From assembly GCA_035495615.1 (NCBI GenBank), contig DATJFP010000078.1:1-57148 (forward strand): DNA of 57,148 bases, read 5' to 3'. The number at the start of each line of letters is the position of its first letter. Position 1 is the first letter of the stretch. The notes under the pieces were generated by a model. That model did not search any database. It was not told the DNA's origin and saw nothing but the letters and a program-made list of their open reading frames with translations. Of the stretch, positions 3,755-38,876 are shown piece after piece. This DNA is from Verrucomicrobiia bacterium. GTDB taxonomy: Bacteria > Omnitrophota > Omnitrophia > Omnitrophales > Aquincolibacteriaceae. The translations under genes and the position numbers were made by a program.

Positions 3755-5625
3755 GTTTCCTCCGCCCCGCCGGGCACGCCCGGCTCCGCGGGTTCCGCGG
3801 TCGCTTCTTTCGGAAATTCTTCTTCCCTTTCGGGCGCCGCGTTCTGCAAAAGCCACGTGTCGCGGTAAAAGCCTCCGCGGCGCAGCAGCTCTTCATGCGT
3901 TCCCTGGTCCGCGATTTTTCCGTCTTCCAGCACGAGGATGAGGTCCGCTTTTTCGAGCGCCTTCACGCGGTGCGAGACAAGGAGAAGGCTCTGGATGTGC
4001 CGCTTTTGATAAATCGTCTCCAGAAGCCGCCGCTCGGTTTCATAATCCACAGCCGAGAGCATGTTATCCAGGATCAGCAGCGAGCACGGCGCAAGCAGCG
4101 CGCGGGCCAGGGCCATTCTCTGTTTTTGCCCGCCGGAGAGCATGATGCCTTTTTCGCCCACGAGCGTTTTCTCCTGCTGCGGAAAATGCCTGACTTCATT
4201 TTCCAGGGCGCATTCCCGAAAAATCCGCCACAGCTCGTCGTCCCCCAGATGCGCGCCGGAAAGAAATTCCACGTTGTCGCGGACGGTTTCCGAAAAAAGA
4301 AAAGGTTCCTGCGTGACGGTCCTGATCTTCGAGCGGAGTTTCGCGAGGTCCATGACCGCCGCGTCTTCCCCGTCCACGAAAATGCGGCCGGGGCCCGGAT
4401 CGAGGTACCCGTTCAGGCAATTGACGAGCGTCGTCTTTCCCGCGCCGATGCGGCCGAGAATCCCCACGACCTTGCCCGGCGGGGCCTTGAAGGAAACGCC
4501 GCGCAGGATCTCACCGTCCGCCCCCGGATACGCGTAATGAAGGTCGCGCACTTCCAGTCCGGGCTCAGGCTTTGCCGGCGCCGCAATGGCGGCCGCTCGG
4601 GCCGGAGCGCCTTCGCTCCGGCACTGAGAAGACCCTCCGCGCTCGAAGCGCGGAGCTCGGGCCGGCGGCTTTTCGCTCAGGATCGTCTCGATGCTTTCCA
4701 GGCCCAGGATGCCCTGCTGCAGCATGTTCGTCATCCAGTTGAGGCCCATGAGCGGCGCCATGATGAGCGCGATGTAGGCGAGGTAGGCCGTAAGATCGCC
4801 GACCGAAAACTCCCCGCGCAGGACCATGCGCGCGCCGAGCGCGAGCACCAGGATTTTCAGCAGGGATTCGAGGCTGCCCAGGAGAGGCCCGAGAAAGCAG
4901 TTCCACACCGACATCTTGAGGCCGGTCGTGAGCCAGCCGAGATTGTGCGTTTTAAATTTGCGGCGTGCCCACCGGGCCATGGAAAAGTTTTTGATCACTT
5001 CGACCGCGGACAACGACGACGCGCTGAAGGCCGAGAGGTCGCGCATGTGCGCCATCTGCCGGCGTGAAAGGATGCGGACATGCTCCATGCCGGTCCGGTA
5101 AACCGCGAACACGACGGCCGCAGCAAACGCGGCCCAGAGCGTGAGCCGGGGCGACAAGCGCCACATCTGGGCCGGGGCCAGGGAAAATGACGACAGGAGA
5201 TTCACGACCTGGAAAACGCCGAAGCCGCACAAGAGGCGTACGCCGGTGATATCGTTGTTGATCCGGGAGATGACCGCGCCGGAGGAATTGCGGTCGTAAT
5301 AATTTTTGTCCAGGGAGAGGAGTTTTTCGAGCAGGTCCCCTTTCATCCGGCGCTCGATTTCGCGCGCGGCATTGTAAAAAAGGAACCGGGAAAAGATGCG
5401 GGCCGCGGCCATGCCCGCGGCAAGCGCCGCCATCACGGCCAGGTAACGGCGAAGCCGCGAAAAATCCGCGCCGCCGGACGTGATCAGGTCGACACTCAGC
5501 TTGATGTAATGCGGCAGCGTCACCGCAATCCAGTTCGTGCCGAGCGTGGCCAGCGCCGCCAAAAGATACTCGGCCTTATGCTGGCCCAGATAATGAAAGA
5601 GAAGCCTCATGCGGCGGGTCGCCAT
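3751..5625 (-). CDS. ABC exporter half-transporter with degenerate Walker B
   Basis: 624 residues: six-helix transmembrane domain (about 1-310), a linker (about 315-360), then an ATPase domain. Walker A is ILGRIGAGKTT, the signature is canonical LSGGQKQRMALARAL and the H-loop is LLLVSHRVKAL. Walker B reads LLILDNMLSAVD: Asn521 replaces the catalytic Glu. Known heterodimeric exporters (LmrCD, TM287/288, BmrCD) also have one subunit lacking this Glu and a partner with an altered signature, which is what the downstream gene shows. The linker carries a 60-bp palindromic insertion between 11-bp direct repeats (4595-4665). The gene starts 6 bases after the MFS stop and is translationally coupled to the second subunit. 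Confidence 0.93.
   Translation of the reverse strand: MATRRMRLLFHYLGQHKAEYLLAALATLGTNWIAVTLPHYIKLSVDLITSGGADFSRLRRYLAVMAALAAGMAAARIFSRFLFYNAAREIERRMKGDLLEKLLSLDKNYYDRNSSGAVISRINNDITGVRLLCGFGVFQVVNLLSSFSLAPAQMWRLSPRLTLWAAFAAAVVFAVYRTGMEHVRILSRRQMAHMRDLSAFSASSLSAVEVIKNFSMARWARRKFKTHNLGWLTTGLKMSVWNCFLGPLLGSLESLLKILVLALGARMVLRGEFSVGDLTAYLAYIALIMAPLMGLNWMTNMLQQGILGLESIETILSEKPPARAPRFERGGSSQCRSEGAPARAAAIAAPAKPEPGLEVRDLHYAYPGADGEILRGVSFKAPPGKVVGILGRIGAGKTTLVNCLNGYLDPGPGRIFVDGEDAAVMDLAKLRSKIRTVTQEPFLFSETVRDNVEFLSGAHLGDDELWRIFRECALENEVRHFPQQEKTLVGEKGIMLSGGQKQRMALARALLAPCSLLILDNMLSAVDYETERRLLETIYQKRHIQSLLLVSHRVKALEKADLILVLEDGKIADQGTHEELLRRGGFYRDTWLLQNAAPEREEEFPKEATAEPAEPGVPGGAEET
4595..4665. repeat. 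palindromic element inserted in frame in ABC transporter gene (copy 1)
   Basis: Two 11-bp direct repeats, GCTCGGGCCGG (4595-4605 and 4655-4665), lie exactly 60 bases apart. Between them are hairpin A (GCCGGAGCG, loop CCTT, CGCTCCGGC; 4601-4622) and hairpin B (CTCCGCGCT, loop CGA, AGCGCGGAG; 4635-4655), both perfect 9-bp stems. The 60 bases equal 20 codons in the interdomain linker, so the gene stays in frame; residues PARA occur on both sides of the insert. Confidence 0.75.
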
Positions 5626-23408: not shown

Positions 23409-23494
23409 CAAGGTCCGCCTTGAGGGGATCTCATACCTGCGCCCCCGTGGCGCAGGTACGTAATGGGAGGGCCTCGATGGCCCTCTCCATTACG
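23409..23494. repeat. three successive stem-loops at the 3' end of the giant gene
   Basis: Hairpin a: CAAGG/CCTTG (23409-23422). Hairpin b: TACCTGCGCC (23434-23443) and GGCGCAGGTA (23449-23458), 10 bp perfect with loop CCCGT. Hairpin c: CGTAATGGGAGGGCC (23459-23473) with GGCCCTCTCCATTACG (23479-23494), 15 bp with one bulge. Hairpin c overlaps the stop codon of the 5,128-residue gene. None has a T-run. Confidence 0.6.
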
Positions 23495-26400
23495 CCATAC
23501 TCGAAATAAGTTCGGAGGCTTCGTGACGGTACATGAGTTCGAGGGCGACGGTCGTGATTTCCAGCCGGCCGTTGTTGAACGTGACGATTTCCGGCAGCCA
23601 CGCGGGGATGCGCCGCAGGAGTTCCGCCGTGATTTGCCGGATGTCTTCATGCGCCAGAGCGGAGGTAAGGAGCAGCGCCACGGGAACCGTGTGCTCGGCG
23701 TCCGCGGACGAATGAACGATTCTGGAACCGTATTTTTGTGAATCCGCAAGCGCGGAAAAGCTGTAGATAAGCGCGCGGCCGTTTTCCTTCAAGTAATCAT
23801 CGAGACGGATCTGCGTCAAGGCATTGTCATGCAGCTCGAAAAAGTGCGCCACTTCGGACTGTTCCACTTTCTGGACAAACTCTTTGGGAAGGCCGCGTTT
23901 TTCTTCCGGCGTGAGGAGAATTTGAATGTCGGCCTTCACACGCAAAGGCTCTTTCTTTTTCAGGCGCTCGACCATGTCAATGTATCCGGAAAGCCATTCC
24001 ACAGCCTTGACCGAACCCTGGGGCTGGAAGCCGAAGCTGAAATCAAGATTGCCCTGCGGGGCCTGGAGATACCGGTCAAAATTGGCTTCTTCCAAACGCA
24101 GCATTTCCCGCACAAACCCCGGGAATTCCTGCTCGTGATCAGGATGCCGCGCCCGTAATCTTTCGCGCGCCTCCGAAAGCAGGCGCGCCGCCCGGTCAGT
24201 CTTGTGATCGGCCGCGAACAAGGCAAGATACCGCGGCGTTTCACGGGCTTCCACTTCCATGGCGTAGGCCACGCGCGGAAACGAAACGCCTTCGACGGCT
24301 TCGAGAAAACGTTCGAGCGTGGAACCGAATCTCATCTCGCTGCGGAGGTTTTCGTCCGCGAGCCCTTCCAGAACCGGCGCCGCAACGGCGCGCAGTTCCG
24401 ACTGTGTGACATCTTCCGCCTTCAAAGTTTTGAGATCGGTACGGATCGTCGATTCTCCGAGACCCGCCGCATTCTGCGAACCTTCGGGTAAGAGGGCGGC
24501 CAAACGTTCGCGGGCTTCACGCGCGAGAATGTCCGGCTTGTCTTTACGGATCTGTCTGAGTGCGTCGCGCCGCGAGGCGGCCGTGACGGCATTGCCTTCG
24601 ATCACAAGCTTGATCGTTGCCGCTTCCGCCGCAGGCGGAGGAGGCGTTTCCGGTTCGGGGGTCGTAACGGGCAGCTGGGCCTGCGCGGCCACGAGCTGCG
24701 GTAAAGGCTCGGCCGTAAGGCCGTTGAAAAATTCTCTTTTGGCATCCAGCCCGGCAACGAGCGCCGGAACGGGTCCGGGGCGCCGCTGGCGCAGCTGCAT
24801 GACGATCGGATTCCATTCCGCGTGCTGGGCCTTGATCCACTGCGCGACTTCCCGGCTGCGGGCCGGTTCGCCGTGGCCGATCAGGACCTGGCGAAGATTC
24901 GGCATCGTGCCGAGGACATGCTCCATCATGTCCGGACCCGAGATGTGGCCCGAAAGCTTAAACTCTTCGATGCGCGCGAGCAGCGGCAGCGGGCCGAGCT
25001 TCAGGGTTTCGCGAAGCGGCTCGAGAAGCTCGCCCACGTCCTGCTGGTCGATGCGTTCCCACCGCAGCAGGGCTTTGACGCGCTGGTCCGCGAGGGCGCC
25101 GACTTCTTCATGGAAATCAAAATGCGTCGCACCTTCCCGCTTGGCGCGCACGAGCTCGCTGCCTTTTTCCAGAGGATCCATGTACCCGGTCGGGAAAATG
25201 CCCGCGTTGGGATCGTTCACAAGGCGCGTCGCGTAAAAAAGCGAGCGGCCGGAAGACATGTTTCCCGGGCTGGCGATGATGACGGTTTTCTGGCCGCCGT
25301 CGCGTTCCAGGATCTCCGCGCGCTGGCGGCCCCGCGTCACATAATCGGCGTCGTTGATGATCACCACGCGGTTTCGGAGAAGTTCGCGGTAGGGCGCATA
25401 GGCCTGCGCCTTCCACTTCAGGTACGAGTCGATGAACGCCGCGGCCTGGCCGTCCACGTAGATTTTCAGGTCCATGCCGCCGGAAACGAGGCTGGCAAAA
25501 TTTTCGAGAAGAAGGGAGAGCACGCGGTCCGAACGTCCGTTCGCGAAAACGGGCAGCAGCACGCGGCCGCGGTCTTTGTGCAGTGTTTCCGAAACGGCTT
25601 TGACGAGCAGCCTTTCCTGTTCTTCGTCCGGCACGCGGTCGGCCATGCCGTAAGTGGATTCGATTTGCGCCTGGTCGATCTGCGCGGCGATTTCCTGCGG
25701 AATCGGCGCAAAGCCCGGCGTGGTTCCTTGGCGCGAATAGGAAACGTCGCCTGAAAGGAACGTCGTGCTGTCGGGCGTGCTCACGATCAAGGAAGCGGCC
25801 CCGTGAAGATGTCCGACCGGGCCGTGGAAATAGACTTTCATCTTCGGCGTCACTGAATACCATTTGCCGGTCTCGAGAATAATCACCGATTTCAGGAACT
25901 CCTCGGCCTCTTCGCGCGTGAAGCGGGTATTGATCTCTTCGTTGCCGGCGCCCTTTTCCTGCGCGATGCTGTCGGCCAGAAAACTCAGGACCGACGGAAG
26001 CAGTTCGTAGGTTCCCTGCGTCACATAAATGGGCACTTTTTTCTTCAGCACGTCCCGCCAGAAAGGCACGACGTGGCCGACGTGGTCAAGGTGGGCGTGC
26101 GTGAGAAAAACGCCTCTGAGTTTTCCCGGGAAATGGTCGAGCTGCCGCGGGGTCCGGGGCGGGGTCAGGCGGCCGTCGAGCTTGACGCCCATGTCGACCA
26201 GCAGAAGATCTTTTTCTTCCTGGCCGCTTCCCTGGTATTCGACGAGCGTCGAACTTGCGCCGATCCCCTGCACGCCGCCGTAAGGCGTCAGGTATGTGGC
26301 TCTTACCTTGGCCTCGGGTGCGGAGACCTGCTGTTTTCTTCTTTCTTCTTCCGAGGCACGCTGCGCGGCTTCGGCCGCGACCGCGGCCTCCCGCTTCTTC

Positions 26401-29400
26401 CTGAAAAATTCGCGTGCGAAATAACCCTGCGTGGGATGAACCGGCTGGTCGAGCGTCTTGATGAGCCCGTTCCTTCTCGCTTCTTCGGTGTCCAGCCATT
26501 GCGCGCCGTTTTCATCGATGACGCCGGGGTGCTCCGCCAGCACGGTTTCGATGTGTCCTTTCACGCTGTGGGCGTGTTCGAGGGTCGTGCCCAGGAAGAT
26601 TTCTTCCGTCCAGGCCCCCGCCCCCGCTTCCGGCGCATGGACCGCGGGCAGGATAACGGAACTGACAAAGTCTTCGAACTGGTTGGCGAAGCGCGCGCGG
26701 TCCGCCGCTTCTTCCGGCGCGTTCACGAGCCATTCCATGTCCATGTCGAAGTAGTCGTTGTGGACGACGAGGTACGTCTGAAGATTGTTGAGCACGCGCT
26801 TGGGCTCGCGCGCAAGGGCCTTTGTCAGGGCTTCCGAGCGGGCCACGGCCTTTTCCGGGCCTTCACGCAGGAGGTCGGTGAAGATCATGCGAAGCACGGC
26901 ATAGTTGAGTTCGTTCGTGTATTTCGTGGAATCCAGCACGTGCGGCAGGATCTGTTTCAGATTCCCAAGGACCGTGATTTTGCGATCCAGGCTCTCCAGC
27001 ACGTTATCCGGCCCCATGGCTTCGAGGAACTGGCCGAAATAAGTTTGCACCTTCGCCATATCGAGTTCCGTCTTGGCCTTGACCGCGTCTTCGAAAATCC
27101 CGCTCAGGGCGGCCCCGAGTTTTTCGCGGCGGCTGGCAAATTCAAACTGTTCCTGCAGGAGCTGCTCGCCGGTTTCCAGATCGAAAAGCACGACGACGGG
27201 CATGTCTTTCTGCACGGCCGCGGCGCCTTCCCTGGAGAAAACAAAATTCCGTTTATACCGGATAAAAAGATACGGGTGCTCGGCCTCTACGGTCGTGGTC
27301 GTCAGCTGATAGTAGTCTTTTTCCTTGTCGGCGATGGTGGCGTCATGATGGTAAGCATAGTGGCTGGCCGTCGCAAGCCCCATGCCGTCATTGAGGACGC
27401 GTCCGGTTTCCGTCCTCAGAAGCGCCGGGACTTCGTAAAACGTCGAGCCGTCACGCGACTTGAAATAAAAGGAGGCATCCGAGCTGTTGCCGTGATATTC
27501 GAGGACATTGCGCAGCACGAAACGAAACGCGGTTTCAGAACCCAGCTTGCCGAGCTTGGCGGTGTTCCTGACCCGGTATTGATCCAGCTTACGCGCCACT
27601 TTGATGCGCTGCGTCAGGGCCTGGCTGTCTTCGTAAGTCTTGCCGTAACGTTCGAGGTTCGCCGCCGGCCATCCGGTCATCTGTTCCGGTGTATAGCGTT
27701 CCGGCATGGCGGGAACTTCGATGTCGGCGTTGAACGTATCCTGTTTCCAGATTTCTTCGAGTTTTCTTTTGTGTTCTTCGATCTGGCGCAGCGGGTCCCG
27801 GCTTTCCATGACTTCTTCGAGTTTCGTGAGCGCGGCGGCCGGATTATGAAGCAGCGATCGCGACACGGAAACGGTCCCCTGCGTGAGGTCGATCTGCACG
27901 CCGGCATCTTCATCTTCCAGGAGTTCGATCTTGGTGTAGCCGCGGCCGGAGCTCATGCGGGCTTTCAATTGGGCTGCGAGGGCATTCAGCCCCAGGTACT
28001 CGACCGCGTCCCGCGGATTCAAATGCGCCACGGCGGGCGCGAGTTCTGTCAGCACTTGCGCATCTGTCGTTCCCGGAACAGCCTTGGGTTCGGGAGCCAC
28101 CACGACACGGCCCAGATAAGTCAGGGCTTCGGAGCCGACTCCGGGCTGACGCGCATAAAACGTGATCGAATCGCCGCTCTTCTGCACGATGAGGGACTTG
28201 TCCTGCCGGCCGCGGATATGCACGGCCAGTTCGCGGGCCGCGAGCGGAAAACGCAGCAGGTCGCTGCCTGTCAGCGGCACGTTGTAAAAACCATCCTCTT
28301 CGATTTTACCCGTAACCTTTTTCGTCTGTTCGTCGACGGCGACTTGCTTGACGGCGGACGCTTCCGGCTGAGGCACGATTTCCCACGCGATGCTTCCCTG
28401 CGTGCCTTTCATGCCGAAGGGACGCGCAGCGTCTTTGACCGGAATCTGAACCACGGTTTCGGCCGGCGCCACCGCTTCCGGCACTTCAGGCGACTGGTCG
28501 GCGGGAGGCTGCGTGTACGGCTCAAACGTCAGCTTGTCCTCGCGAATCGTGAGTTTGACGAGCGTTCCCGGCGCGAGGTGCGAAGCTTTGAAAACCAGGT
28601 TCGTGCCGGGAAGCCGGACACCGTTCACTCCGTAAGTGCCGACCCAAACCGCTTCTTTGTCTGTGAAAGGCTTTGCCGTATCATCCGGGTCTTTGATTCC
28701 GTACCAAGGATGCTTGGCGAGGTTCATGAAATTGTCCGCGGGAAAAGGTTCGGGGCTGTATTTTCCGAAAGCGCGGGTCCGCATGAGCGCCCTATTGCTG
28801 TCCGGATCGGGATGGCGGCCTTCATGCATGAGCCCGACGCGCACCGGAGGTTCGAACTGTACGGATCCGGGAAAGGCGGCCCTGAAAAGCTCCTGCCATT
28901 CGTTGAAACTTTCGGGGGCGCCCTCAGGCGCCAGGAACTTTTTGAACGCCTCGAGATCCGGCACGCTGATGCCGTCCGGATGGATGTGAATGAAGTTCAT
29001 CAGCTCGTCCAAAAGGAACGGGAATCCCATGTCGCGGCGGGTACGCGGCATGCCGGACCAATAGAGGGCGAGAATCGAATCGATCAGCACGCGGGCGGAC
29101 TGCGGCGTCAGACGGTCGGAGTCTTTCTCGGTTTGCAATTCCTGCGCAAGCCGCGCGAAAAGGCTGTCGCCCCGGGTGAAGAGCGAATAATACCAGAAGA
29201 GCAGCGCTTCGGTCGGATTGTCCGAGTAAACGAGGTCCATGTAATCTTTGATTTTCGGATAATGCGAACGCACGTGGTGCCAGAACGAGGCCTCAGCATC
29301 CTCCTGAATCATCATCACGTCGCGGACCCAGCTTTCCATGTCCACGCCTCCGGGCGCGTAATAAGACGGCCGGCTGTTCTGCGGCGTCATGCGCTTGCGC

Positions 29401-32400
29401 ATGCCGAGCAGCAGCTCGAAAACGTGCTGGATGTCTTCATTCTGCGTCGTGGTCGCGTGGTCATGCACGCCATGGAGCCATCCCAGGATTTCACTCCAGA
29501 GGTGCTGGGGATAGCGCTGCTCCGTGATCGTGTTCGCGGCTTCATCGATGTCGTAATAAGTCGTGCGGTAGACGCCCACCATGGCGCCGGTGCGCACATG
29601 CGACGCGGTGGCAAGACGCACGCCTTCGGCGATTTCCCGGACGTCGGGATTCTGCGCGAGCACGGCGTAAGCGTAGCTTTTGAGAAGATTGTTGTGATGC
29701 ATCACGAGCCCGGGCAGAGGTTCGTAGCCTGAAAATCCCACGATGAAACTGTTCGCTTCCGCGTTGGTAATGCGGCCCAGGCCATCGACGTACATCTTGT
29801 CGTCTTCATGCCCATAAGTTCTCTGCCGGCCGTGATACCAGTCGGGCGGCGCCAGGAGTCCGGCGCTCAAAGTCTCCTGATACGTCTTGAGGGTCCTGTC
29901 GAAAGCTTCGCGGGAGAGCGGCCCGAACTGCTGCGCCGCAAGAACCGACGGTTCAGGCATGTTGAATTTCAAATTGCCCCTGCGGATGGCCCCGGCAAGA
30001 AAATCTTCCGCTTTGAAAGGCGTCGCGGCTCCGCCGATGAAGCGGCCGAGGCGGCTGAGCTGCTCGGTGTCGCGAGTGAATTGGGTGTTTGCCTGCATGG
30101 TGCCGAGCAGGGATTGGCGGACTCCCGAAAAATAAAGGAAGTACTGGTCGCGGTATTCGGAAAAGGCGATGAGCGGCAAAATCACGTTGAAGAAAGCCGA
30201 GAGGACGGCCTCGGCTTCGCGCTTGTCGCGTTCATTGGCCGCGAGGATTCCGCTCGGAACGCTGAGGCCGGCGGTCACCGGCTTGCTGAACGCTTTGACT
30301 TTTCTCCAAGCCTCGGTCGCATCCGTGTTCCTCTGCCAGAGTTTTTTGGCAAGGTATCCGGCCTGGGAAATGACGGGATGCGGTTCGTTCTTGATGTCCA
30401 GCTGCAGCCAGTCCGCGAAAAGCGTGTCCGTGGCGATATATGTGTTTCCGGAAATAAATCCCTTGAAGCGCTGGGCCGCGGGATAAAGAAATTTCGCCGT
30501 GGAAAGGTCGCTGAATTCGCGGTAGGTCCTTTGGAAACCGACTTCGGAATCCGTTCCGAAAACCGCTTTCGCGAGCTGGTCGGCGAGTTCCGGGGCCTGC
30601 CATTCCTGCTGGGACCCGCGCACTCTCTGGGCATAACTGCGCACGCCCGCGGCGAATAAAATCTGCGCGGCGAAATCCTCGTCGTCAAAAACACCGAGGC
30701 CGAGATCGATCCTGTGCGCGGCGGGTGTTCCATAATAATAAGAACCGTCCAGCCAACGCTGCTCTTCGAAAGCGTAAAAGGATGAAACCCCCTGCTTGGG
30801 CGCGAGAGATTCGAGATGTTTCAAGACCGCCGCGGCGCGGTCTTTTTCCTGGCTGGGCCCCATGCCTTCGATTTTGCCCCGCAGCCGCGCGAAATGCGGC
30901 TCGAGAAAATCGCGGGTGAGCTGCTGCATGTCTTTGACAGCCCGGACTCTTTCAGCGGCCTTGCCCTCGCCCCAGAATTCGGCGCTCCCGCGGGAGACCG
31001 TGCGCAGCTCCGGCCTTTCGACCGTCAGGATGCGGTAGGGCTGGTCGGGGTCGAGAGAAATCCCCGTGATCGTCCGGTCGGTCTCGTTGATATCGAAGCG
31101 GTGATGCGTTGAAGCGTCCCGGACCTTGTAATCGGCGACGGCGCCGGGAAGCGCCTCTTCGCCCGGCAGCTTGACGTAACCAAGCTTTTGCCCTTGCTGG
31201 GGCCAGAGGTCCGCGACAAAAATTTTCCATTCGCCGGTCGGTTCCTCCCATCCGAGCGTGACAAAACGTCCGGGATCCTGATTCGCAAGAATCCTGTAGA
31301 TCGGCCGCGGCAAGCCCGGGTCTCGCGGTTTGACCATGTCCAGCAGTTCCTGAATGCGGTAGGCAACGGAAGCATCCTGCACGGCGTCGATCAGGCGGTC
31401 GAAGTTCAAAAGGGTTTCCGCTTCTTCCTGGCTGGCGAAAGGATGGTCGTGCATGCGGTCCGGGTGCTGGTCTCCGCCGGGAATCGGAAAAAGCTGTCCG
31501 GAAAATTCGAGCCAGTCGCGCAGGTCGATCATGACGTCTACGCCGAGGTGCGCCATGACGAGAAGAAGGGCCGTGGCCGCCTTGCGCGAGATTCCGCCCG
31601 AAGACTTGATGAAAGGAAACTGGTCGAAATTCGAAAAATAAATCGTCGTCCTGTCGCCGTGATGCAGGGCGTGCTCGAGGGCCCCAAGAAGCTCATACAC
31701 GGGACGCCCCCTGCCCGCTTTCACGAGGTTCTCGAAAACGTCGGGATAATAAGCGCCTTCTGCGCCGACCTCGTGCAGCTTGCGCCTTAGATCCGGATTG
31801 TAAGACTCGGTGTTGAATCTCAACTTTTTCCCCTCAGGCCGCGGATCATAGTCTTTGGCCGCCTCAAAAATCCCCGTCCAGGGCTCGTCGATTTCATGCA
31901 GGTTCTTCTCGATTTCCTCGGCAATGCCGGGCTTGCGGCGGGGGCTTTTCCACATGCTCCAGCCGTATTCGTCGGAAAAATAAGTCCTGTTTCTCTTGTC
32001 CCAGCCTTCGCGCTTGTCGCCGAGGAAGTATTCCCGGAGATACGTTTCCGCCATGTCGATGCGCACTTCGTCGACTCCGAGATCGATGAGTTTTTTCATG
32101 CTGCGAATGTAATATTCCCGGACGTCATTGACGAACGGGTTGAGCATGATCTGGTCGACGTTCGGCGCGTAGAGCCCCTGGAGATGCCGCACGAGAATGA
32201 CGCGCTCTCCGCTTCCGGAACCAATGCGCACCGCGACATGCCCTTCGTTGCGCCGGGCCAGCTCCTTCAGGAATTCGAGCTTGCGGCCTTCGTCGAATCC
32301 GACGAACTGCCTGTTTTCGTCGTCGCTGATTTCTTTATAAAACGTCCAATGGTAATTCTCTTCGGTGATCTTGTCCGGCGCGAGCCACGGAATAAAATCC

Positions 32401-35400
32401 AGCGTCACGCTCATGCCGAGCGCATGCGCCTCGTTGATCAGTTCCCGCAGCAGCTGCTGCGTCTTTTCCGATGAGCCCGCCTGATCACGGGTCGCGGAAA
32501 GCTGCGCATTGAATTCTTCCATGCTTCCGGAAAAAGGATTGAGGTCGTCTTCGTGTTGGATCGCCGCGCCCGTCGCGGGATCTTTATAGCTGGCAAGCTT
32601 CGTGGGATAATCCCGGACCGTGCCGACGACGCGGCCGTCGCGGCCGGTGGTGTACTGGAGGCTTTTATCCTTGCGGCCGCGGTGCACCTGGCCGTTGAAC
32701 GGCGTCATCTCATAAAGCCCGCCGTAGAAATAAACCTTGCCGGCGCCGCGCGCGCGCAGCGTGCGGAGAAGCTGCTTGCCCCGGTTCAGGCTGTCTTCGT
32801 ACCGGATTTTGCCGTCCTTTACGACCGCTCCGATTTCTTTCAGGTTGACGGAGACTTTCAAATGAGAGAGTTTCGGCGCGGCCACGGCTTCTTGACGATG
32901 CAGAACCACGCGGTCCTGGCCGTTGCGGCTTTTGCGCAGATCGATCAGCTGGAAACCCAGCGGGTACTCCGGCGTCTTGCCTTTCCATTCGCGGCTCCAG
33001 ATCGGAATGCCGATTTCCCAGCCCGCCTGCAGCAACTGGCTCCCCTGCACGACGCCGTAGTAACGCTTGCGGATGAGGTCGTAAGGCTCGTATTCCGTGT
33101 TCCGGTCAAGGCCCAGACCTTCGCTTCCCTCGCCAAGAGCCGTCACGAAAGTCCAGACTTTCGGGGCGGTGTCCCGCGTGCTGACGTGGTCGGATGTAAG
33201 CTGCACGGGAAGAACGAGCCGCTGGTCGCCGAATGTCCGGGACAGGACGAGCGTCGTCTGCTGGTTGCTCGGCTTGGGAAAATCGATTTTGCCGTGTTCG
33301 AAAACGTCGCTGTTATGGCGGACCGTGCGGGCCAGAAGGCGGTAGGTATGGATGTCCCAATTGTGCATGAGCCTCAAGAGCGAAGGCGCCAGGAAAGAAA
33401 CAAGCGCCATGACCGAGGGCAGCGTTTCCTGCGAGAAGAGCCTTGCCGCCGTCTTTTTATCCAGGGACGCGATGGGCATCAGCAGCTCTTTCAAATCTTC
33501 TCCCGACTCCTGCGCGGCCTTGATTCTTTCGATGAAAATCTCGAGCGGCACGACGCCCTCCATGGGCTTTTTGTGAATGGCGGAGGAGAGATACGAGATC
33601 ATCTCGGCTTCGATCTTGTCGAACGTGAGCACCTGGATGCTGGCCGGCGCCGGGACACCCAGCAAAACAGGAGATTTAGAAGCAGAGCCGTCGTAAAACC
33701 GGTACCGCCGGTCCTTGTTGGGTTCGTAGGCCTGGAAAAGATACCGGCCGCTCGGCTCGTCGAGGTCTTCCCAGAACTTTTTGAGCTTCGAGTCATAAAT
33801 AAGATTGCCCCAGGCTTTCTGCGCTCCGGTTTCTCCCGGGAAAGACACGGGAACCCGGCGCAGGTTGATGGCCACGACCATTTGCTTTCCGTCGGCGTCG
33901 TACCGGTAGGCATGCATGCCGGCTTCGTCCACCGTCAGCGGCGAGGCCTTGGCATTGCTGTCGAGGAAGCGGATTAAGTGCTTGCGCAGCGCCTTTTGTT
34001 CGAAAACTTTTTCGTAGCGCGCCACCTCATCGGGCTGGTCGGACGTCAGCTTTAGATAATGCTCGAAAAATTGGCCGGTAGCCTGGAGCATGAAACGGTC
34101 TACAAGATCAAGGGCTCGCAGGTTCATCCGGAGGACCTTATCGCGGTCATCGCTTCCCGCGGCTTCGGCGGCGAGTTCATCGATTCTGTCGCGCAAGGGC
34201 TGCGCGGCGTCGGAAAGCGGGGCTAAGAGAGCCTTGATGTACGGGAAAATGCTGCCGCCATTGTGACGTTCTTCCCAGGCGTGGTGCCGGAGCGAGGCGA
34301 CCGCGTTCTGTCCCCGCAGCAAACCGTCGCCCTGCGACCGGAGACGGCGGAAGCCTTCCATGAGCCCCGGCAGGCCGGGCCTGCCGCGCTGGACGATGTG
34401 GCCGCCCAGGATGCGCCAGTCGAACACGGGATTTTGCGGGTTATAAAGCTTTTCGACGTCTTCCAGATTGTAAGAAATGCCGTCCAGGATTTTCTGCTTG
34501 CGCTGGCGCACTTCCAGCATCCGCTCCCAAAGCTGGCGATGCGCGCGCGACTGGCCGACCTGCATGTCGACTTTATAAGAAGCGGCGAGGACGTTATACT
34601 GCCGCTGACGGCGGACCGCCGGGTCCTTGTAATCGGTTTTCAGGTCGACGAGCGCAAGCGCCAGACTTTCCGCGGACGGGCGCCGATGGCCTTCCGGCTT
34701 CAGGTTGCTTTCTTCGCGGCCGGGGCCGGTGCCGTAAGGCAGGAACCACACCACGCGGCCGTTGGTGACTTCCCATTCTTTTCTCGCGATGCGCGCCTGC
34801 AGTTCGTCGTGGGTGACGATCGGCTTGCCGTCTTTGTCGAGGACTTCGATTTCCTTGCCGGTTTCCTTGTCGACGATGGACCAGATTTCGAGGTTGGCGC
34901 CGCCCACCACGCCAATGATTTCGCCAAGGTTCGTGGCGCCTTTCATCATGCTGGTGGCGGAGGCTTCCAGGAATTCGTCCGCGATCATCACCACGCCGGA
35001 CATGGCCTGAAACAGAATGGGCGCTTCGCGGATGTTGTAGTTTTCGATGGTCGTAACGCGGTCTTCCAGGCCCATTTCGCGGATCAGGCTCTTGATGGTC
35101 TCAAAGGTTTTCAGATCGTCCGGGCCGAACACGCGGCCCCCGATCACGATGCGCGGCGCGTTTTCCTTAAAATATTGCAGCGCGCTCTGGTCCTGCTTCA
35201 GGCGCGAGAAGAAATAAAACCACTGGTGCTGGTCTTTCGACCACGGGTTCTGCAGGAACTCGAAGACGTCTTTCCATTTGTCCGGACCTTTGTAAGGCAC
35301 CTGCCGGCGCACGTTCGAGACGATCGGGTCCTGCATGAGCGTTTCGCGGAGGCGTTCGAATTTCTTGTCGAGCTCCTGCCACTGGGCTTCGGCCGCGCGC

Positions 35401-38400
35401 GCGTCAGGATTCATCGCGGCGTCGTGAACGAGTTTCACAAACTCTGCGATCTCGCCTTCTTCGGCTTCGGCGCTCACGTCCTCGGGACGGTATTGCTTGA
35501 AAGTGCTGTGCAGCCAATCGGACGCGCCGCCCTTGCCCTGCTTTTTACGCAGCCACACGAGAAATTTGGCGACGCTCATGGCGCCGACGTATTCGTTACG
35601 GATCTTGAAGGTCTCGAAAGCCTCCGGGATTTTCGCCAGCGCGATGAAGAAATCCTTGTCATCGGTTTCAGGAGCAATGCCGATCCTGGTCTTGGTCGCC
35701 TCGATCAGCGAGCGGCGTTCTTCGGCCTGCCAGCGGCGGAGAAAGGCGCCGTTTGTGCTGCGGACATCGTCTTCCCGCAGGCCCTGGAGCGTTTCCAGCT
35801 CCGCGGGGAAAATGGATTCCTTGAGTTTCGGCGTGTGCTCGGCAAGGCCAACGCCTGTGATGAGATCGTAGGTCAAGCCGACGTAATCCGCGATGCGGAT
35901 CCTTTTGTTGTGCACGATGAGCGGGCGCATCCACTCGGGGAAACCCAGCAGCTCGAACGCCTCTTCACCCGGTTCTTCGAGGCCGGGCGTATAAACCGTG
36001 TGGTTGATGTGATGCTTTTTCGCGGCCGGCAGAAAATTGGCGGGCAAGCTGACGAACTGTTCATTGTCGATGAGGAGCAGGTCTTTTTTCAGGAGGTTAC
36101 GCTTTTGAAGCTCGAGAATGAGTTTCTGTCCCGCCTGGCGGTAGATGGCCATGTGCACGTAGCGCCAGTACTGCTTGCCTTTGATGTTCGTGCCGTCGTC
36201 GTTGTACACCTCATCGAAAATGCGGACCCGGTTCTCCTCGATGTCCGGCTGGCTTTCGTCCTTGAGGTAATACGCGTCCAGGTAATATTGCGGCGTCTTG
36301 TAATAAGTGGCCTCGCTTTTGAAGGCGCGGACTTTGATTTTTTTGTCGAGGATCTGTTTGGCTTTACTGCCGCGCGCAATGACCGCGGCGCGGAAACCGC
36401 TTGTGATCGTCAAGTCGACCTGGAAGGAAATGCCCGTGTCCTCCATGCCTTTGCGCAAATACTGTCCCAAGCCGCCCGGCGGCTGAGGCACGTTTTTGAT
36501 TTCTTCCCAAATCGGCTGGACGGAGATGACGTTGGTGTTGTTGGCCTTCCACGTCTCGAAGAGGTCCGGCATGAGAGCGCCGAGACCGCCGGTCACCGTG
36601 CTCTGTGCCACGCGGTCCGCGACTTCTTCGCCGTATTGCTTGGCCACCCATTCCAGAAAATGCGGCGGAAGCCCTGCTTCCATCTGAAAGCTGACGACCG
36701 AATGCTCGTCGAGAATCGGGGTGGGTTTTTGGAGACGCAGTTCCGCGCGCGGCGGAGCCTGCTCCTGCGGCTGCGCGGCCCCAGGATGTTCTTCGTCCCG
36801 CCGGGTTTGACTTTCGAGGGCGGCTTCGGGCGCGGTTCTCAATTCCGATTGGGCTGACGCGGAAAGTTCGGCCTCGGGCCGGGGCGAGTAACGCACCCGC
36901 GTCCAGTCCACGGGAACTGTGGCTTTCGGAGCGGCGATCATGACCGAAGTCCATGACGCGGCCGTCGGCCGGTTCATGGCCTGGAGCAGCGCGTCCGGAG
37001 TCAGCTCGCCCTGCGCATGCCGCTCGCGCAGCGCGTCCAGGAAACTTTCGACTCTTTCAAACCACGCCGTGCGGATTTTTTCACGCTCCGCGGGATCCAT
37101 GCCGCGCACGCCGATCTCGTCGATCGTCGAGGTGCTGCGCGCCGCTTCCGCGAGCCGGTTTTCCCCGGCCAGCTGCCGCAGGACGTTGTCTCTCCAATTT
37201 TTCAAAAAAGTTTTTTCGCTTTGCGGGTTGGTTTTCCGGTAAGCCAGGACCAGTTTGTCCGCGGCCGCTTCGCTGAAGGCCTCGGAAACGCGGATCCTGC
37301 CGCGGCTGGGCTTGAAATAATTTTTCCAGGAAACCTGGCCCTGCATGTGATTGACGTAATCCGGATTTTCCGGCATGGCCTCGATCTTCGGCGTCACCAG
37401 CAGGTACGGCGCGCCCCGCTCTTCGAGCGCCGCCATCAATCCCTCGCTGTGAAAACCGCCGGTCACGATAATCGCGGCCGGCGCTTTTTCTTCGGCCATG
37501 CGGCGGCCCATGTTTTCGAGCATGGCCTTTTCGCGCTGCTGCGCCAATTCGTAAAATTTGCGGGACGGGCTATCGGATGACGTGAGAGTTCCGGCAAGCG
37601 CCGCGATTCTGGCTTCGAGCGCCCGGGTTTCTTCGAATCCGGCACCCGGAGTTTTCGCCGCGGCTTCCTTCCCTTTTTTCCATTCGTCCCGCGACAATTC
37701 GAGCCGCGCGGTTTTTTCCAGGAGGCCGAGCTGCCGCGAAAGCGCGTCGATCTGCTTTTCGAGCGCGGAGCGGAACAGCTTTTCCTTCGCGGCACGGGTG
37801 TAGGCCTCGAGCTCGGAAAAGAAATGGCTTCCTTCCATCTGTTTGAGCCAGCGGAAATTTTCAGCGTGGTCCCGCAACGCCTGCGAGAGCGCAAGCTTCA
37901 CGGACCGGCGGCCCGCGTCATCCATGAGAAACGCAGCGAATTCGCCTGCGGAGATGCGCTCGGTTTCATAGGCCTGGTCTTTTTCGTGGAACTGGCGCAG
38001 CGCGTCGGGATCGCGCAGGTCTTTTTCGATTTTCGCCGCCGCGGCACGAAGCTCCGCGCGCAGGCCGAGGAATTCTTTTTCAGAAGGAACTTTCAGGTGG
38101 TCGAGAACGTTGCGGAGGTTCGGGTAATCGGATTTGCGGATTTCCGCGCCTTTTTTATGGGACATCTTTTCGATTTTGTACAAAAGCCCGGCAAGCTCGA
38201 TCTGCCGCGCATCAAAGCCGGTCAGCGTATGATCCAGATCCAAAAGCTCGGTGGAATATTTTTCTTTCTTGAGAGTCTCGAGGGCCGCGCGCGCTTCGCC
38301 GAGTTCTTTTTCGCGGGCCGACCTTGCTTCGAGCGCGTCGAGATAGGCGTCGATGTCCTTTTCATAGAAGCGGCTGTCTTCGAGACCGTAATATCGGATG

Positions 38401-38876
38401 TCTTGGGGACCCAGGATTGCGGTAAGAAGAGCGCCCGAGATTTCGCCGCGGGAAAGGTAATCTTCGAACACGGATTGAAGCGCTCCGCGGTCCGGAAAGG
38501 CCCGGAACAATGTGGTGTCCAGAGGGCCGGAAGCGCCTTCCAGTCCCACGAGACGCACGCCGTATTCGCGATGGAAAAATTCGATGATGCCCTGGACGGA
38601 ACGCTGCGCGTCCGGAATGTCGTGCGCGTCCTGCACAATAATGAAGCCGGGCAAATGGCCTTCGGGCGCAAAGGACTGCTTGAGCTGGCCGAGTTCTGAA
38701 GGAAGACGGGCCTGCGAAAAAAGAAGCGCGGCGGATTTCGGCGCGAAAGAAGAATCCTGCTGCGCGATTCCCGCGGGCGCCTGCGCGGAAGCAGGGCCGA
38801 TTGCATAAAAGGAGAGTAAAGAAAAGACGAGTAGGGATGCAGTTCCCCTTTTCCAATTTTTTTGTTTTGGGCTCAT
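23490..38876 (-). CDS. giant exported multidomain protein, 5128 aa (TraB-like, GT35-like, GH13-like, MBL/beta-CASP)
   Basis: A single uninterrupted frame of 15.4 kb with AGGAAG before ATG 38876. Signal peptide: WKRGTASLLVFSLLSFYAI, then ASAQA. Domains: (1) about 60-500, TraB/ChaN-like, with VQDAHDIPDAQ (His85), VGLEGASG and VTGGFHSEGL (His476) around a helical insert. (2) about 740-1450, alpha-glucan phosphorylase (GT35)-like: TGGLGALMPDLF, DNEQFVSLP, and EASATSMMKGATNLGE, in which Lys1312 matches the PLP lysine. (3) about 2050-2600, GH13-like: VTLDFIPWL, VDEVRIDMAE (Asp2274), GIFEAAKDY (Glu2338), YFSNFDQFP (Asp2418), matching nucleophile, acid/base and third carboxylate. (4) about 2700-4150, unassigned. 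(5) about 4190-4690, metallo-beta-lactamase plus beta-CASP: THAHLDHVGH (His4260, His4262, Asp4264, His4265), GHLHGAAS (His4358), LSGDVS (Asp4377), ESTYG, VLLPVFANGRSD, LIGHGEP. (6) a helical tail. It probably acts on alpha-glucans outside the cytoplasm; the nuclease-like domain is unexplained. Confidence 0.9.
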   Translation of the reverse strand: MSPKQKNWKRGTASLLVFSLLSFYAIGPASAQAPAGIAQQDSSFAPKSAALLFSQARLPSELGQLKQSFAPEGHLPGFIIVQDAHDIPDAQRSVQGIIEFFHREYGVRLVGLEGASGPLDTTLFRAFPDRGALQSVFEDYLSRGEISGALLTAILGPQDIRYYGLEDSRFYEKDIDAYLDALEARSAREKELGEARAALETLKKEKYSTELLDLDHTLTGFDARQIELAGLLYKIEKMSHKKGAEIRKSDYPNLRNVLDHLKVPSEKEFLGLRAELRAAAAKIEKDLRDPDALRQFHEKDQAYETERISAGEFAAFLMDDAGRRSVKLALSQALRDHAENFRWLKQMEGSHFFSELEAYTRAAKEKLFRSALEKQIDALSRQLGLLEKTARLELSRDEWKKGKEAAAKTPGAGFEETRALEARIAALAGTLTSSDSPSRKFYELAQQREKAMLENMGRRMAEEKAPAAIIVTGGFHSEGLMAALEERGAPYLLVTPKIEAMPENPDYVNHMQGQVSWKNYFKPSRGRIRVSEAFSEAAADKLVLAYRKTNPQSEKTFLKNWRDNVLRQLAGENRLAEAARSTSTIDEIGVRGMDPAEREKIRTAWFERVESFLDALRERHAQGELTPDALLQAMNRPTAASWTSVMIAAPKATVPVDWTRVRYSPRPEAELSASAQSELRTAPEAALESQTRRDEEHPGAAQPQEQAPPRAELRLQKPTPILDEHSVVSFQMEAGLPPHFLEWVAKQYGEEVADRVAQSTVTGGLGALMPDLFETWKANNTNVISVQPIWEEIKNVPQPPGGLGQYLRKGMEDTGISFQVDLTITSGFRAAVIARGSKAKQILDKKIKVRAFKSEATYYKTPQYYLDAYYLKDESQPDIEENRVRIFDEVYNDDGTNIKGKQYWRYVHMAIYRQAGQKLILELQKRNLLKKDLLLIDNEQFVSLPANFLPAAKKHHINHTVYTPGLEEPGEEAFELLGFPEWMRPLIVHNKRIRIADYVGLTYDLITGVGLAEHTPKLKESIFPAELETLQGLREDDVRSTNGAFLRRWQAEERRSLIEATKTRIGIAPETDDKDFFIALAKIPEAFETFKIRNEYVGAMSVAKFLVWLRKKQGKGGASDWLHSTFKQYRPEDVSAEAEEGEIAEFVKLVHDAAMNPDARAAEAQWQELDKKFERLRETLMQDPIVSNVRRQVPYKGPDKWKDVFEFLQNPWSKDQHQWFYFFSRLKQDQSALQYFKENAPRIVIGGRVFGPDDLKTFETIKSLIREMGLEDRVTTIENYNIREAPILFQAMSGVVMIADEFLEASATSMMKGATNLGEIIGVVGGANLEIWSIVDKETGKEIEVLDKDGKPIVTHDELQARIARKEWEVTNGRVVWFLPYGTGPGREESNLKPEGHRRPSAESLALALVDLKTDYKDPAVRRQRQYNVLAASYKVDMQVGQSRAHRQLWERMLEVRQRKQKILDGISYNLEDVEKLYNPQNPVFDWRILGGHIVQRGRPGLPGLMEGFRRLRSQGDGLLRGQNAVASLRHHAWEERHNGGSIFPYIKALLAPLSDAAQPLRDRIDELAAEAAGSDDRDKVLRMNLRALDLVDRFMLQATGQFFEHYLKLTSDQPDEVARYEKVFEQKALRKHLIRFLDSNAKASPLTVDEAGMHAYRYDADGKQMVVAINLRRVPVSFPGETGAQKAWGNLIYDSKLKKFWEDLDEPSGRYLFQAYEPNKDRRYRFYDGSASKSPVLLGVPAPASIQVLTFDKIEAEMISYLSSAIHKKPMEGVVPLEIFIERIKAAQESGEDLKELLMPIASLDKKTAARLFSQETLPSVMALVSFLAPSLLRLMHNWDIHTYRLLARTVRHNSDVFEHGKIDFPKPSNQQTTLVLSRTFGDQRLVLPVQLTSDHVSTRDTAPKVWTFVTALGEGSEGLGLDRNTEYEPYDLIRKRYYGVVQGSQLLQAGWEIGIPIWSREWKGKTPEYPLGFQLIDLRKSRNGQDRVVLHRQEAVAAPKLSHLKVSVNLKEIGAVVKDGKIRYEDSLNRGKQLLRTLRARGAGKVYFYGGLYEMTPFNGQVHRGRKDKSLQYTTGRDGRVVGTVRDYPTKLASYKDPATGAAIQHEDDLNPFSGSMEEFNAQLSATRDQAGSSEKTQQLLRELINEAHALGMSVTLDFIPWLAPDKITEENYHWTFYKEISDDENRQFVGFDEGRKLEFLKELARRNEGHVAVRIGSGSGERVILVRHLQGLYAPNVDQIMLNPFVNDVREYYIRSMKKLIDLGVDEVRIDMAETYLREYFLGDKREGWDKRNRTYFSDEYGWSMWKSPRRKPGIAEEIEKNLHEIDEPWTGIFEAAKDYDPRPEGKKLRFNTESYNPDLRRKLHEVGAEGAYYPDVFENLVKAGRGRPVYELLGALEHALHHGDRTTIYFSNFDQFPFIKSSGGISRKAATALLLVMAHLGVDVMIDLRDWLEFSGQLFPIPGGDQHPDRMHDHPFASQEEAETLLNFDRLIDAVQDASVAYRIQELLDMVKPRDPGLPRPIYRILANQDPGRFVTLGWEEPTGEWKIFVADLWPQQGQKLGYVKLPGEEALPGAVADYKVRDASTHHRFDINETDRTITGISLDPDQPYRILTVERPELRTVSRGSAEFWGEGKAAERVRAVKDMQQLTRDFLEPHFARLRGKIEGMGPSQEKDRAAAVLKHLESLAPKQGVSSFYAFEEQRWLDGSYYYGTPAAHRIDLGLGVFDDEDFAAQILFAAGVRSYAQRVRGSQQEWQAPELADQLAKAVFGTDSEVGFQRTYREFSDLSTAKFLYPAAQRFKGFISGNTYIATDTLFADWLQLDIKNEPHPVISQAGYLAKKLWQRNTDATEAWRKVKAFSKPVTAGLSVPSGILAANERDKREAEAVLSAFFNVILPLIAFSEYRDQYFLYFSGVRQSLLGTMQANTQFTRDTEQLSRLGRFIGGAATPFKAEDFLAGAIRRGNLKFNMPEPSVLAAQQFGPLSREAFDRTLKTYQETLSAGLLAPPDWYHGRQRTYGHEDDKMYVDGLGRITNAEANSFIVGFSGYEPLPGLVMHHNNLLKSYAYAVLAQNPDVREIAEGVRLATASHVRTGAMVGVYRTTYYDIDEAANTITEQRYPQHLWSEILGWLHGVHDHATTTQNEDIQHVFELLLGMRKRMTPQNSRPSYYAPGGVDMESWVRDVMMIQEDAEASFWHHVRSHYPKIKDYMDLVYSDNPTEALLFWYYSLFTRGDSLFARLAQELQTEKDSDRLTPQSARVLIDSILALYWSGMPRTRRDMGFPFLLDELMNFIHIHPDGISVPDLEAFKKFLAPEGAPESFNEWQELFRAAFPGSVQFEPPVRVGLMHEGRHPDPDSNRALMRTRAFGKYSPEPFPADNFMNLAKHPWYGIKDPDDTAKPFTDKEAVWVGTYGVNGVRLPGTNLVFKASHLAPGTLVKLTIREDKLTFEPYTQPPADQSPEVPEAVAPAETVVQIPVKDAARPFGMKGTQGSIAWEIVPQPEASAVKQVAVDEQTKKVTGKIEEDGFYNVPLTGSDLLRFPLAARELAVHIRGRQDKSLIVQKSGDSITFYARQPGVGSEALTYLGRVVVAPEPKAVPGTTDAQVLTELAPAVAHLNPRDAVEYLGLNALAAQLKARMSSGRGYTKIELLEDEDAGVQIDLTQGTVSVSRSLLHNPAAALTKLEEVMESRDPLRQIEEHKRKLEEIWKQDTFNADIEVPAMPERYTPEQMTGWPAANLERYGKTYEDSQALTQRIKVARKLDQYRVRNTAKLGKLGSETAFRFVLRNVLEYHGNSSDASFYFKSRDGSTFYEVPALLRTETGRVLNDGMGLATASHYAYHHDATIADKEKDYYQLTTTTVEAEHPYLFIRYKRNFVFSREGAAAVQKDMPVVVLFDLETGEQLLQEQFEFASRREKLGAALSGIFEDAVKAKTELDMAKVQTYFGQFLEAMGPDNVLESLDRKITVLGNLKQILPHVLDSTKYTNELNYAVLRMIFTDLLREGPEKAVARSEALTKALAREPKRVLNNLQTYLVVHNDYFDMDMEWLVNAPEEAADRARFANQFEDFVSSVILPAVHAPEAGAGAWTEEIFLGTTLEHAHSVKGHIETVLAEHPGVIDENGAQWLDTEEARRNGLIKTLDQPVHPTQGYFAREFFRKKREAAVAAEAAQRASEEERRKQQVSAPEAKVRATYLTPYGGVQGIGASSTLVEYQGSGQEEKDLLLVDMGVKLDGRLTPPRTPRQLDHFPGKLRGVFLTHAHLDHVGHVVPFWRDVLKKKVPIYVTQGTYELLPSVLSFLADSIAQEKGAGNEEINTRFTREEAEEFLKSVIILETGKWYSVTPKMKVYFHGPVGHLHGAASLIVSTPDSTTFLSGDVSYSRQGTTPGFAPIPQEIAAQIDQAQIESTYGMADRVPDEEQERLLVKAVSETLHKDRGRVLLPVFANGRSDRVLSLLLENFASLVSGGMDLKIYVDGQAAAFIDSYLKWKAQAYAPYRELLRNRVVIINDADYVTRGRQRAEILERDGGQKTVIIASPGNMSSGRSLFYATRLVNDPNAGIFPTGYMDPLEKGSELVRAKREGATHFDFHEEVGALADQRVKALLRWERIDQQDVGELLEPLRETLKLGPLPLLARIEEFKLSGHISGPDMMEHVLGTMPNLRQVLIGHGEPARSREVAQWIKAQHAEWNPIVMQLRQRRPGPVPALVAGLDAKREFFNGLTAEPLPQLVAAQAQLPVTTPEPETPPPPAAEAATIKLVIEGNAVTAASRRDALRQIRKDKPDILAREARERLAALLPEGSQNAAGLGESTIRTDLKTLKAEDVTQSELRAVAAPVLEGLADENLRSEMRFGSTLERFLEAVEGVSFPRVAYAMEVEARETPRYLALFAADHKTDRAARLLSEARERLRARHPDHEQEFPGFVREMLRLEEANFDRYLQAPQGNLDFSFGFQPQGSVKAVEWLSGYIDMVERLKKKEPLRVKADIQILLTPEEKRGLPKEFVQKVEQSEVAHFFELHDNALTQIRLDDYLKENGRALIYSFSALADSQKYGSRIVHSSADAEHTVPVALLLTSALAHEDIRQITAELLRRIPAWLPEIVTFNNGRLEITTVALELMYRHEASELISSMA

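Follow-up and report, generated by a model that had tools for sequence, protein, structure and literature searches.

A 5,128-residue, cysteine-free, predicted exported multi-enzyme protein of an Omnitrophota genome and its relatives with a common head domain

The giant gene and its modules

The present study analyzes a giant gene in a window of 57,148 nucleotides (the whole stretch of DNA, positions 1 to 57,148 of contig DATJFP010000078.1 in assembly GCA_035495615.1) from an Omnitrophota genome, called G000 below. The gene lies at 23490-38876 on the minus strand and is one open frame of 5,128 codons (15.4 kb) without internal stop, with the Shine-Dalgarno-like sequence AGGAAG directly before its ATG, no N in its sequence and a codon-position GC that is even from end to end. 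Its product begins with a signal peptide, has no other transmembrane segment at the stricter threshold and contains no cysteine. An earlier note on the window had proposed a single exported protein combining TraB-like, GT35-like, GH13-like and beta-CASP nuclease-like domains, and the unbroken frame and signal peptide bear out the single exported polypeptide. From the N-terminus onward, its features are as follows (aa, amino acid residues).

38784..38876, minus strand: Sec signal peptide, aa 1-31, from the translation (MSPKQKNWKRGTASLLVFSLLSFYAIGPASA, followed by QA), with cleavage likely after ASA and a helix at 3-26 in the model
36957..38783, minus strand: N-terminal TraB/ChaN/EreA-superfamily-like domain (the head domain), aa ~32-640, from a 27-member alignment, a model and weak profile matches
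34377..36734, minus strand: GT35 (glycogen/alpha-glucan phosphorylase-type) catalytic unit, aa ~715-1500, from alignment, Pfam and an AlphaFold2 model
32937..34376, minus strand: C-terminal extension of the GT35 unit, aa ~1501-1980, from blastp matches to relatives reaching aa 1959-1980
30987..32879, minus strand: GH13-like module, aa ~2000-2630, with motifs LDF(I)P, RIDM, TES and SNFD
26307..30959, minus strand: segments U1-U2, aa ~2640-4190, kept together with the nuclease as a single conserved unit in genomes G013, G015 and G017, and from U2 onwards in G004
24792..26294, minus strand: metallo-beta-lactamase/beta-CASP/RMMBL nuclease, aa ~4195-4695, with motifs THAHLDH, GHLHGA, SGDVS, ESTYG, ANGR and SGHISG
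23493..24401, minus strand: C-terminal domain, aa ~4826-5128, common to other giants such as those of G014 (11,456 aa), G010 (12,231 aa) and contig C26 of the same genome

Pfam detects just 66 aa of the GT35 unit (PF00343, 27.5 bits), and a fold prediction was made because hhalign of the GT35 family against the genome's own GlgP had aligned the region around pyridoxal phosphate (PLP) alone. The AlphaFold2 model of aa 715-1900 (predicted local distance difference test, pLDDT, 83; predicted template modelling score 0.80) gave 172 matches in the PDB at E<=1e-3, of which the best 50 were all glycogen or maltodextrin phosphorylases with probability 1.0, superposing over ~870-900 aligned columns at a TMt of ~0.5. 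Family hallmarks occur in order across 15 homologous units (GGLGAL763, NHT958, TNG1041, RRQVPYKG1190, IGGR1245, ENYN1278, EASATSMMK1304, GGANLEI1325); the PLP lysine K1312 and the phosphate-site residues R1191 and K1196 are invariant in these sequences at ~35-47% identity, and H959 is also present in the unit. The model confirms, as a prediction, a whole GT-B glycogen-phosphorylase fold over aa ~715-1500 with retained active-site residues, in agreement with the GT35-like domain first proposed, and phosphorolysis is the predicted reaction. The extension of ~480 aa is modelled as helices and beta-rich segments and is conserved together with GT35 in relatives. A single-sequence search of genome contigs found no relatives; a search with the family alignment returned 18 loci, 16 in Candidatus Omnitrophota and two in metagenome-assembled genomes labelled Elusimicrobia (L158, L164), which could reflect either transfer or mislabelled bins.

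The next module scores 17.1 bits against Pfam (E 0.0035), below the cut-off of 22, and is for this reason classed from its sequence as GH13-like and not as a full GH13 member. The catalytic Asp (RID), Glu (TES) and Asp (NFD) of regions II-IV are kept in all three homologues (the present protein, G019 and G025), and a profile search of structures returned almost only GH13 matches (best 8.7e-4), so that the earlier label holds at this level. In the nuclease, Pfam matches are confident for the metallo-beta-lactamase, beta-CASP and RMMBL parts and the HxHxDH motif is present. TIGR03675 is matched at 3e-37 with 128 bits, the equivalog cut-off of 580 not being reached, while the closest solved structures are of archaeal aCPSF1/FttA (PDB 3af5 at 1e-51). 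These matches support the beta-CASP nuclease-like assignment, and the module is best regarded as related to archaeal aCPSF1/FttA and not as an orthologue. The three long regions that the note could not assign fared differently: aa 1450-1980 belong to the conserved GT35 unit and the last ~300 aa form a domain common to giants, while aa 2640-4190 are still without a fold, although they travel with the nuclease. For U1-U2, Pfam and a structure-profile search gave no match outside the nuclease region and no fold was assigned. A long open reading frame (ORF) on contig C26 (G000:C26:88431-95999, L143), cut by the contig end, also finishes with the C-terminal domain, at 30% identity.

The head domain has invariant residues AH84-85, E113-G114 and GGFH473-476 in the 27-member alignment. 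The hallmark of the TraB/ChaN/EreA (TIKI) group, two His motifs and a conserved Glu, is present, with the first motif DAH and not GxxH. In the 5,128-aa protein this domain has no Pfam match and no PDB sequence match, and its predicted model (pLDDT 85.7) gave no significant fold match in Foldseek, where the three top probabilities were ChaN 2g5g and the erythromycin-esterase-like structures 3b55 and 2rad, all at E>1. Searching the phylum with the Pfam models of ChaN (PF04187) and TraB (PF01963) gave seven weak matches to ChaN, six of them in head-domain proteins, and one weak match to TraB was likewise in this family. The matches of family members stay below cut-off, reaching 1e-5 for PF04187 and 1.7e-4 for PF01963. 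The head is a sequence family of its own, and the pattern weakly suggests a place within the wider TraB/ChaN/EreA superfamily; the TraB-like label thus survives at superfamily level through matches of other members, and not for the protein's own copy, which lacks a Pfam match. Eight relatives have a standalone head-domain gene of ~700-790 aa near a GT35-bearing giant, on the opposite strand (L029, L031, L032, L034, L037, L044, L048, L053).

Paralogs, cysteine content and shuffled modules

The protein is one of many. In G000, 28 ORFs carry the head domain; they range from 601 to 23,959 aa and together amount to 118,203 aa or 11.2% of the assembly. The domain is present in 54 of the 58 sampled Omnitrophota genomes, often in 10-29 copies. 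Signal peptides of the 28 ORFs were recognised by eye, and the paralogs begin like the 5,128-aa protein. The note had known of no family with this domain combination; the protein proves to be no one-off, being one of ~28 with the head, and its modules recur elsewhere in other orders. The payloads behind the head include the following.

G000:C49:7314-32657 (L131, L132), at least 8,448 aa, running off the contig: PGK, GAPDH, DeoC/LacD aldolase-like, GPI, FBPase GlpX and TIM, with a signal peptide
Contig C84: GH77, a PLP-dependent enzyme and a HAD hydrolase
Contig C62: enzyme I of the phosphotransferase system (PTS), an HPr match, and glutamate-dehydrogenase-type and LCAT domains
G000:C85:14242-31509 (L125), 5,756 aa: two RsuA/RluB-like (rRNA-type) pseudouridine synthases with the catalytic GRLD aspartate kept
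Contig C63: acyl-CoA dehydrogenase
G000:C9:3-7442 (L110), cut by the contig end: M23 peptidase, GH13 and sigma-70 regions 2-3, the sigma-70 match being confirmed in a genome-wide search
Contig C51: GNAT and methyltransferase domains
Contig C10: methyltransferases and a protein kinase
Contig C11: FHA domains
Contig C14: APH, M48, ABC1 and kinase domains
G000:C88:18416-90292 (L119-L123), 23,959 aa, 72 kb: head-domain ORF, payload surveyed in bulk

Active-site residues are retained in the TIM and PGK copies on C49. Standalone genes of cytoplasmic type for PGK, TIM and GT35 also occur in the genome, and the giants therefore hold second copies. PGK-like domains are found in giant frames of other families as well (G027, G028, G048) and are strongly diverged in G048 and G056. 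A 24,209-aa giant with PGK in G031 was dropped as evidence, its frame crossing an N run beside a near-canonical PGK, and four open frames in G011 that equal N runs were discarded. With glycolytic enzymes, PTS enzyme I, pseudouridine synthases and a sigma segment among the payloads, the question shifts from a degrader of glucans and nucleic acids to why enzymes of central metabolism and RNA would be exported.

The second pattern is the loss of cysteine. The 5,128-aa protein has none, against ~54 expected from the 1.05% Cys averaged over 220 soluble ORFs taken from this genome as controls (ln P = -54); a crude signal-peptide filter was too noisy to yield a rate for ordinary exported proteins. 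Sulphur economy is rejected as the cause because Met, at 1.9%, is normal. The 23,959-aa paralog on C88 likewise has no Cys, and those on C49 and C62 have two each: both of the former, in 8,448 residues, lie within the GAPDH active-site motif SNASCTTNC, and one of the latter is at the active-site position of enzyme I (TICGALA). A 14,650-aa frame of another family (G028:C8:20934-64883, L180-L182) has three, all in two GAPDH-like active-site motifs, and several GT35 relatives retain Cys in GGSCFPKD, the catalytic motif of UDP-glucose dehydrogenase. For C49 and C62 these identities come from Pfam matches, for the G028 GAPDH and for UDP-glucose dehydrogenase purely from recognition of the motif. 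Over all, a notable share of the Cys left outside signal peptides is at active sites and others are unexplained, and the depletion is weaker in more distant relatives (G048). We take the pattern, as read from the sequences, to be independent evidence that the proteins live outside the cytoplasm and that catalysis is under selection, and the complete absence of Cys from the 5,128-aa protein strengthens the case for export. Export and functional enzymes are, as predictions, well supported.

Modules are shuffled among relatives. The GT35 unit is found inside ORFs reaching 11,695 aa, and the GH13-like module, which follows GT35 in the present protein, precedes it in G019 and G025. In G015 the head is followed by U1-U2 and the nuclease, without GT35, while the 11,456-aa frame of G014 combines head, GT35 unit and C-terminus. 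The joints from head to GT35 and from U1-U2 to nuclease recur in independent assemblies (G001, G013, G015, G017); two others, GH13 to U1 and nuclease to C-terminal domain, were seen in none of the relatives. Downstream in GT35 giants of relatives lies a motif like that of UDP-glucose dehydrogenase, GGSCFPKD, which accounts for one of the few Cys in these proteins (L029-L030, L031, L028, L036-L037, L040); in G021 a glycogen-synthase-like motif, FEPCGL, is present in addition.

Ordinary housekeeping genes flank the giant gene, YchF upstream and CysE, RNase HI and ResB/CcsA downstream, and an Rfam scan matched tRNA alone, with no known intron or other Rfam element interrupting the gene. An antisense open frame of 1,219 aa (26073-29732, plus strand) overlaps it and is probably a by-product of codon bias and not a gene candidate. 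Chance origin of the giant frame itself in GC-rich DNA is ruled out because every unit recurs within long ORFs of other genomes.

Destination of the protein and rival explanations

The reading we favor, to which we would give a little under an even chance, is that the protein is an exported multi-enzyme polypeptide, one of ~28 with a common signal peptide and head, that acts most likely on a prey or host cell, in its cytoplasm or in the contents it releases. The signal peptide would take the chain across the cytoplasmic membrane, and the head would be a common handling or targeting part, possibly protease-like or cofactor-binding as in the TIKI/TraB/ChaN/EreA group. The PLP-dependent phosphorylase and the GH13 enzyme would break down alpha-glucan, the aCPSF1-like nuclease would cut RNA, and other family members would supply the next steps (GH77; GPI, FBPase, aldolase-like, TIM, GAPDH and PGK). 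A prey or host cell is favored because the substrates and cofactors of these enzymes (glycogen, sugar phosphates, NAD, ATP, ribosomal RNA, RNA polymerase) coexist only inside cells, and action on another cell because cytoplasmic copies are already present in the producer. Payloads with pseudouridine synthases, and with sigma-70 regions 2-3 beside M23 and GH13, bear on the same destination, and Omnitrophota have been proposed to be predators or to depend on hosts (PMC10066038). In its broader form, a second, Cys-purged set of central-metabolism, glycogen and RNA enzymes would be exported behind the common head and would run or reprogram metabolism outside the producer's own cytoplasm, probably in prey or host, as a "metabolic takeover", which would be a hitherto undescribed kind of secreted system; we hold this form tentatively, as rather less than an even proposition. 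Of the earlier proposal of a secreted multi-enzyme acting on alpha-glucans and perhaps nucleic acids of a host or prey cell, the enzyme domains and the export signal stand, and the host or prey target is as conjectural as before. Several points weigh against the reading. The analysis identified neither a translocation apparatus nor a partner or target, and the neighbours are housekeeping genes; a Sec signal alone leads to the periplasm and not into another cell; a phosphorylase using PLP and phosphate is unexpected outside the cytoplasm; the GH13 match is weak and 1,550 aa are without assignment; Cys loss indicates extracytoplasmic life or transit without specifying the compartment; and the protein's synthesis, export, wholeness and activity are themselves predictions from sequence.

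The main rival places the enzymes in the producer's own envelope. A second carbohydrate enzyme set that builds or recycles polysaccharide, as alpha-glucan storage or coat, would be housed there in an expanded periplasm, in a coat on the surface or in an internal compartment bounded by membrane. We consider this destination possible and on the unlikely side. For it the Sec signal alone suffices, the lack, at the stricter threshold, of any further transmembrane segment is in keeping with it, the GT35, GH13, GH77, UDP-glucose dehydrogenase, glycogen-synthase-like and FBPase modules would make a plausible polysaccharide route, and V. archaeovorus was named after a proposed coat (PMC10066038). However, it requires NAD, ATP, phosphoenolpyruvate, PLP and sugar phosphates outside the cytoplasm, and leaves pseudouridine synthases and sigma-70 regions without a substrate. 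It is a good deal less probable that catalysis is irrelevant and that the modules are inert parts of a big exported scaffold or coat, made by fusing duplicates of housekeeping genes. That the payloads are highly diverse and poorly conserved, with long stretches lacking a recognisable fold and some modules degenerate, such as the diverged PGK-like domains already mentioned, would fit such a scaffold, but selection on structure alone would not be expected to keep Cys at the active sites of GAPDH, enzyme I and UDP-glucose dehydrogenase, and the invariance of the GT35 active site in 15 diverged sequences is also contrary to it.

Similarly improbable, and compatible with either destination, is a polyprotein that the TraB/ChaN-like head or another protease would cut into separate exported enzymes, in which case the giant would exist as a gene and not as a protein. 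The TraB/ChaN superfamily includes proteases (Tiki), and the modules recur as discrete units in shuffled order, yet no protease catalytic site is demonstrated; repeated cleavage motifs were not sought. That the assembly is chimeric, or that a cytoplasmic protein was wrongly given a signal peptide, has a very small probability. The source is a metagenome-assembled genome and two module joints are unseen in relatives, but two further joints recur in four genomes and G014 shares N-terminus, GT35 unit and C-terminus, and N runs are absent, codon usage is even and Cys is lacking along the whole length.

Comparison with known systems

Giant ORFs of Omnitrophota are already known. Seymour et al. 2023 (PMC10066038) reported them as having few domains and poor conservation; V. 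archaeovorus has one of 39,678 aa, and the giant-gene preprint of West-Roberts et al. 2023 is cited here through the summary in PMC12057145. We found no description of the shared head, the metabolic cargo or the Cys pattern in the literature searched, which excluded the original V. archaeovorus paper and the giant-gene preprint, and priority for these three is not settled. The present gene, at 15.4 kb, is shorter than the giant Omnitrophota ORFs of earlier descriptions (>20 kb), a length that paralogs and relatives exceed (72 kb at C88, 34 kb in G014). The common head, the modular payloads and the pattern of no Cys except at active sites offer a way to recognise, align and test giant Omnitrophota proteins, whose function has been reported as unclear. 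Should the enzymes be active beyond the cytoplasm of the producer, glycolysis-type chemistry would occur in an unexpected place, and exploitation of other cells by Omnitrophota would become testable.

The known giants, as described in PMC10066038 and in the summary in PMC12057145, share with the present ones the phylum, very long uninterrupted exported ORFs and a proposed link to predation or symbiosis. They were described with transmembrane helices and adhesion or carbohydrate-degrading domains, whereas the present giants are set apart by the common head in most sampled genomes, by the absence of Cys and by housekeeping enzymes with catalytic residues kept. The "gigantic" lipocone proteins of Omnitrophota (PMC12419801) are similar in mixing polysaccharide-biosynthesis enzymes, methylases and peptidases and have been read as predation proteins, but they carry a lipocone domain and transmembrane segments in place of a TraB/ChaN-like head and a central-metabolism payload. 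Polymorphic toxin systems share a constant N-terminal part for export or handling, a variable payload and many paralogs per genome; no Pfam trafficking domain of such toxins and no adjacent immunity gene were recognised at the giant locus, and the present payloads are long and metabolic or RNA-modifying, unlike one short C-terminal toxin. Among single modules, the GT35 unit resembles ordinary members (PF00343) in its whole fold, PLP lysine, phosphate-binding Arg and Lys and ordered NHT and TNG motifs, and differs in its predicted export, its place within a 5,128-aa chain, its short Pfam match and its own extension. The nuclease shares with aCPSF1/FttA and CPSF73-like beta-CASP nucleases the order and motifs of the metallo-beta-lactamase, beta-CASP and RMMBL parts, and is unlike aCPSF1/FttA in being exported, as predicted, joined to U1-U2 and far under the equivalog score.
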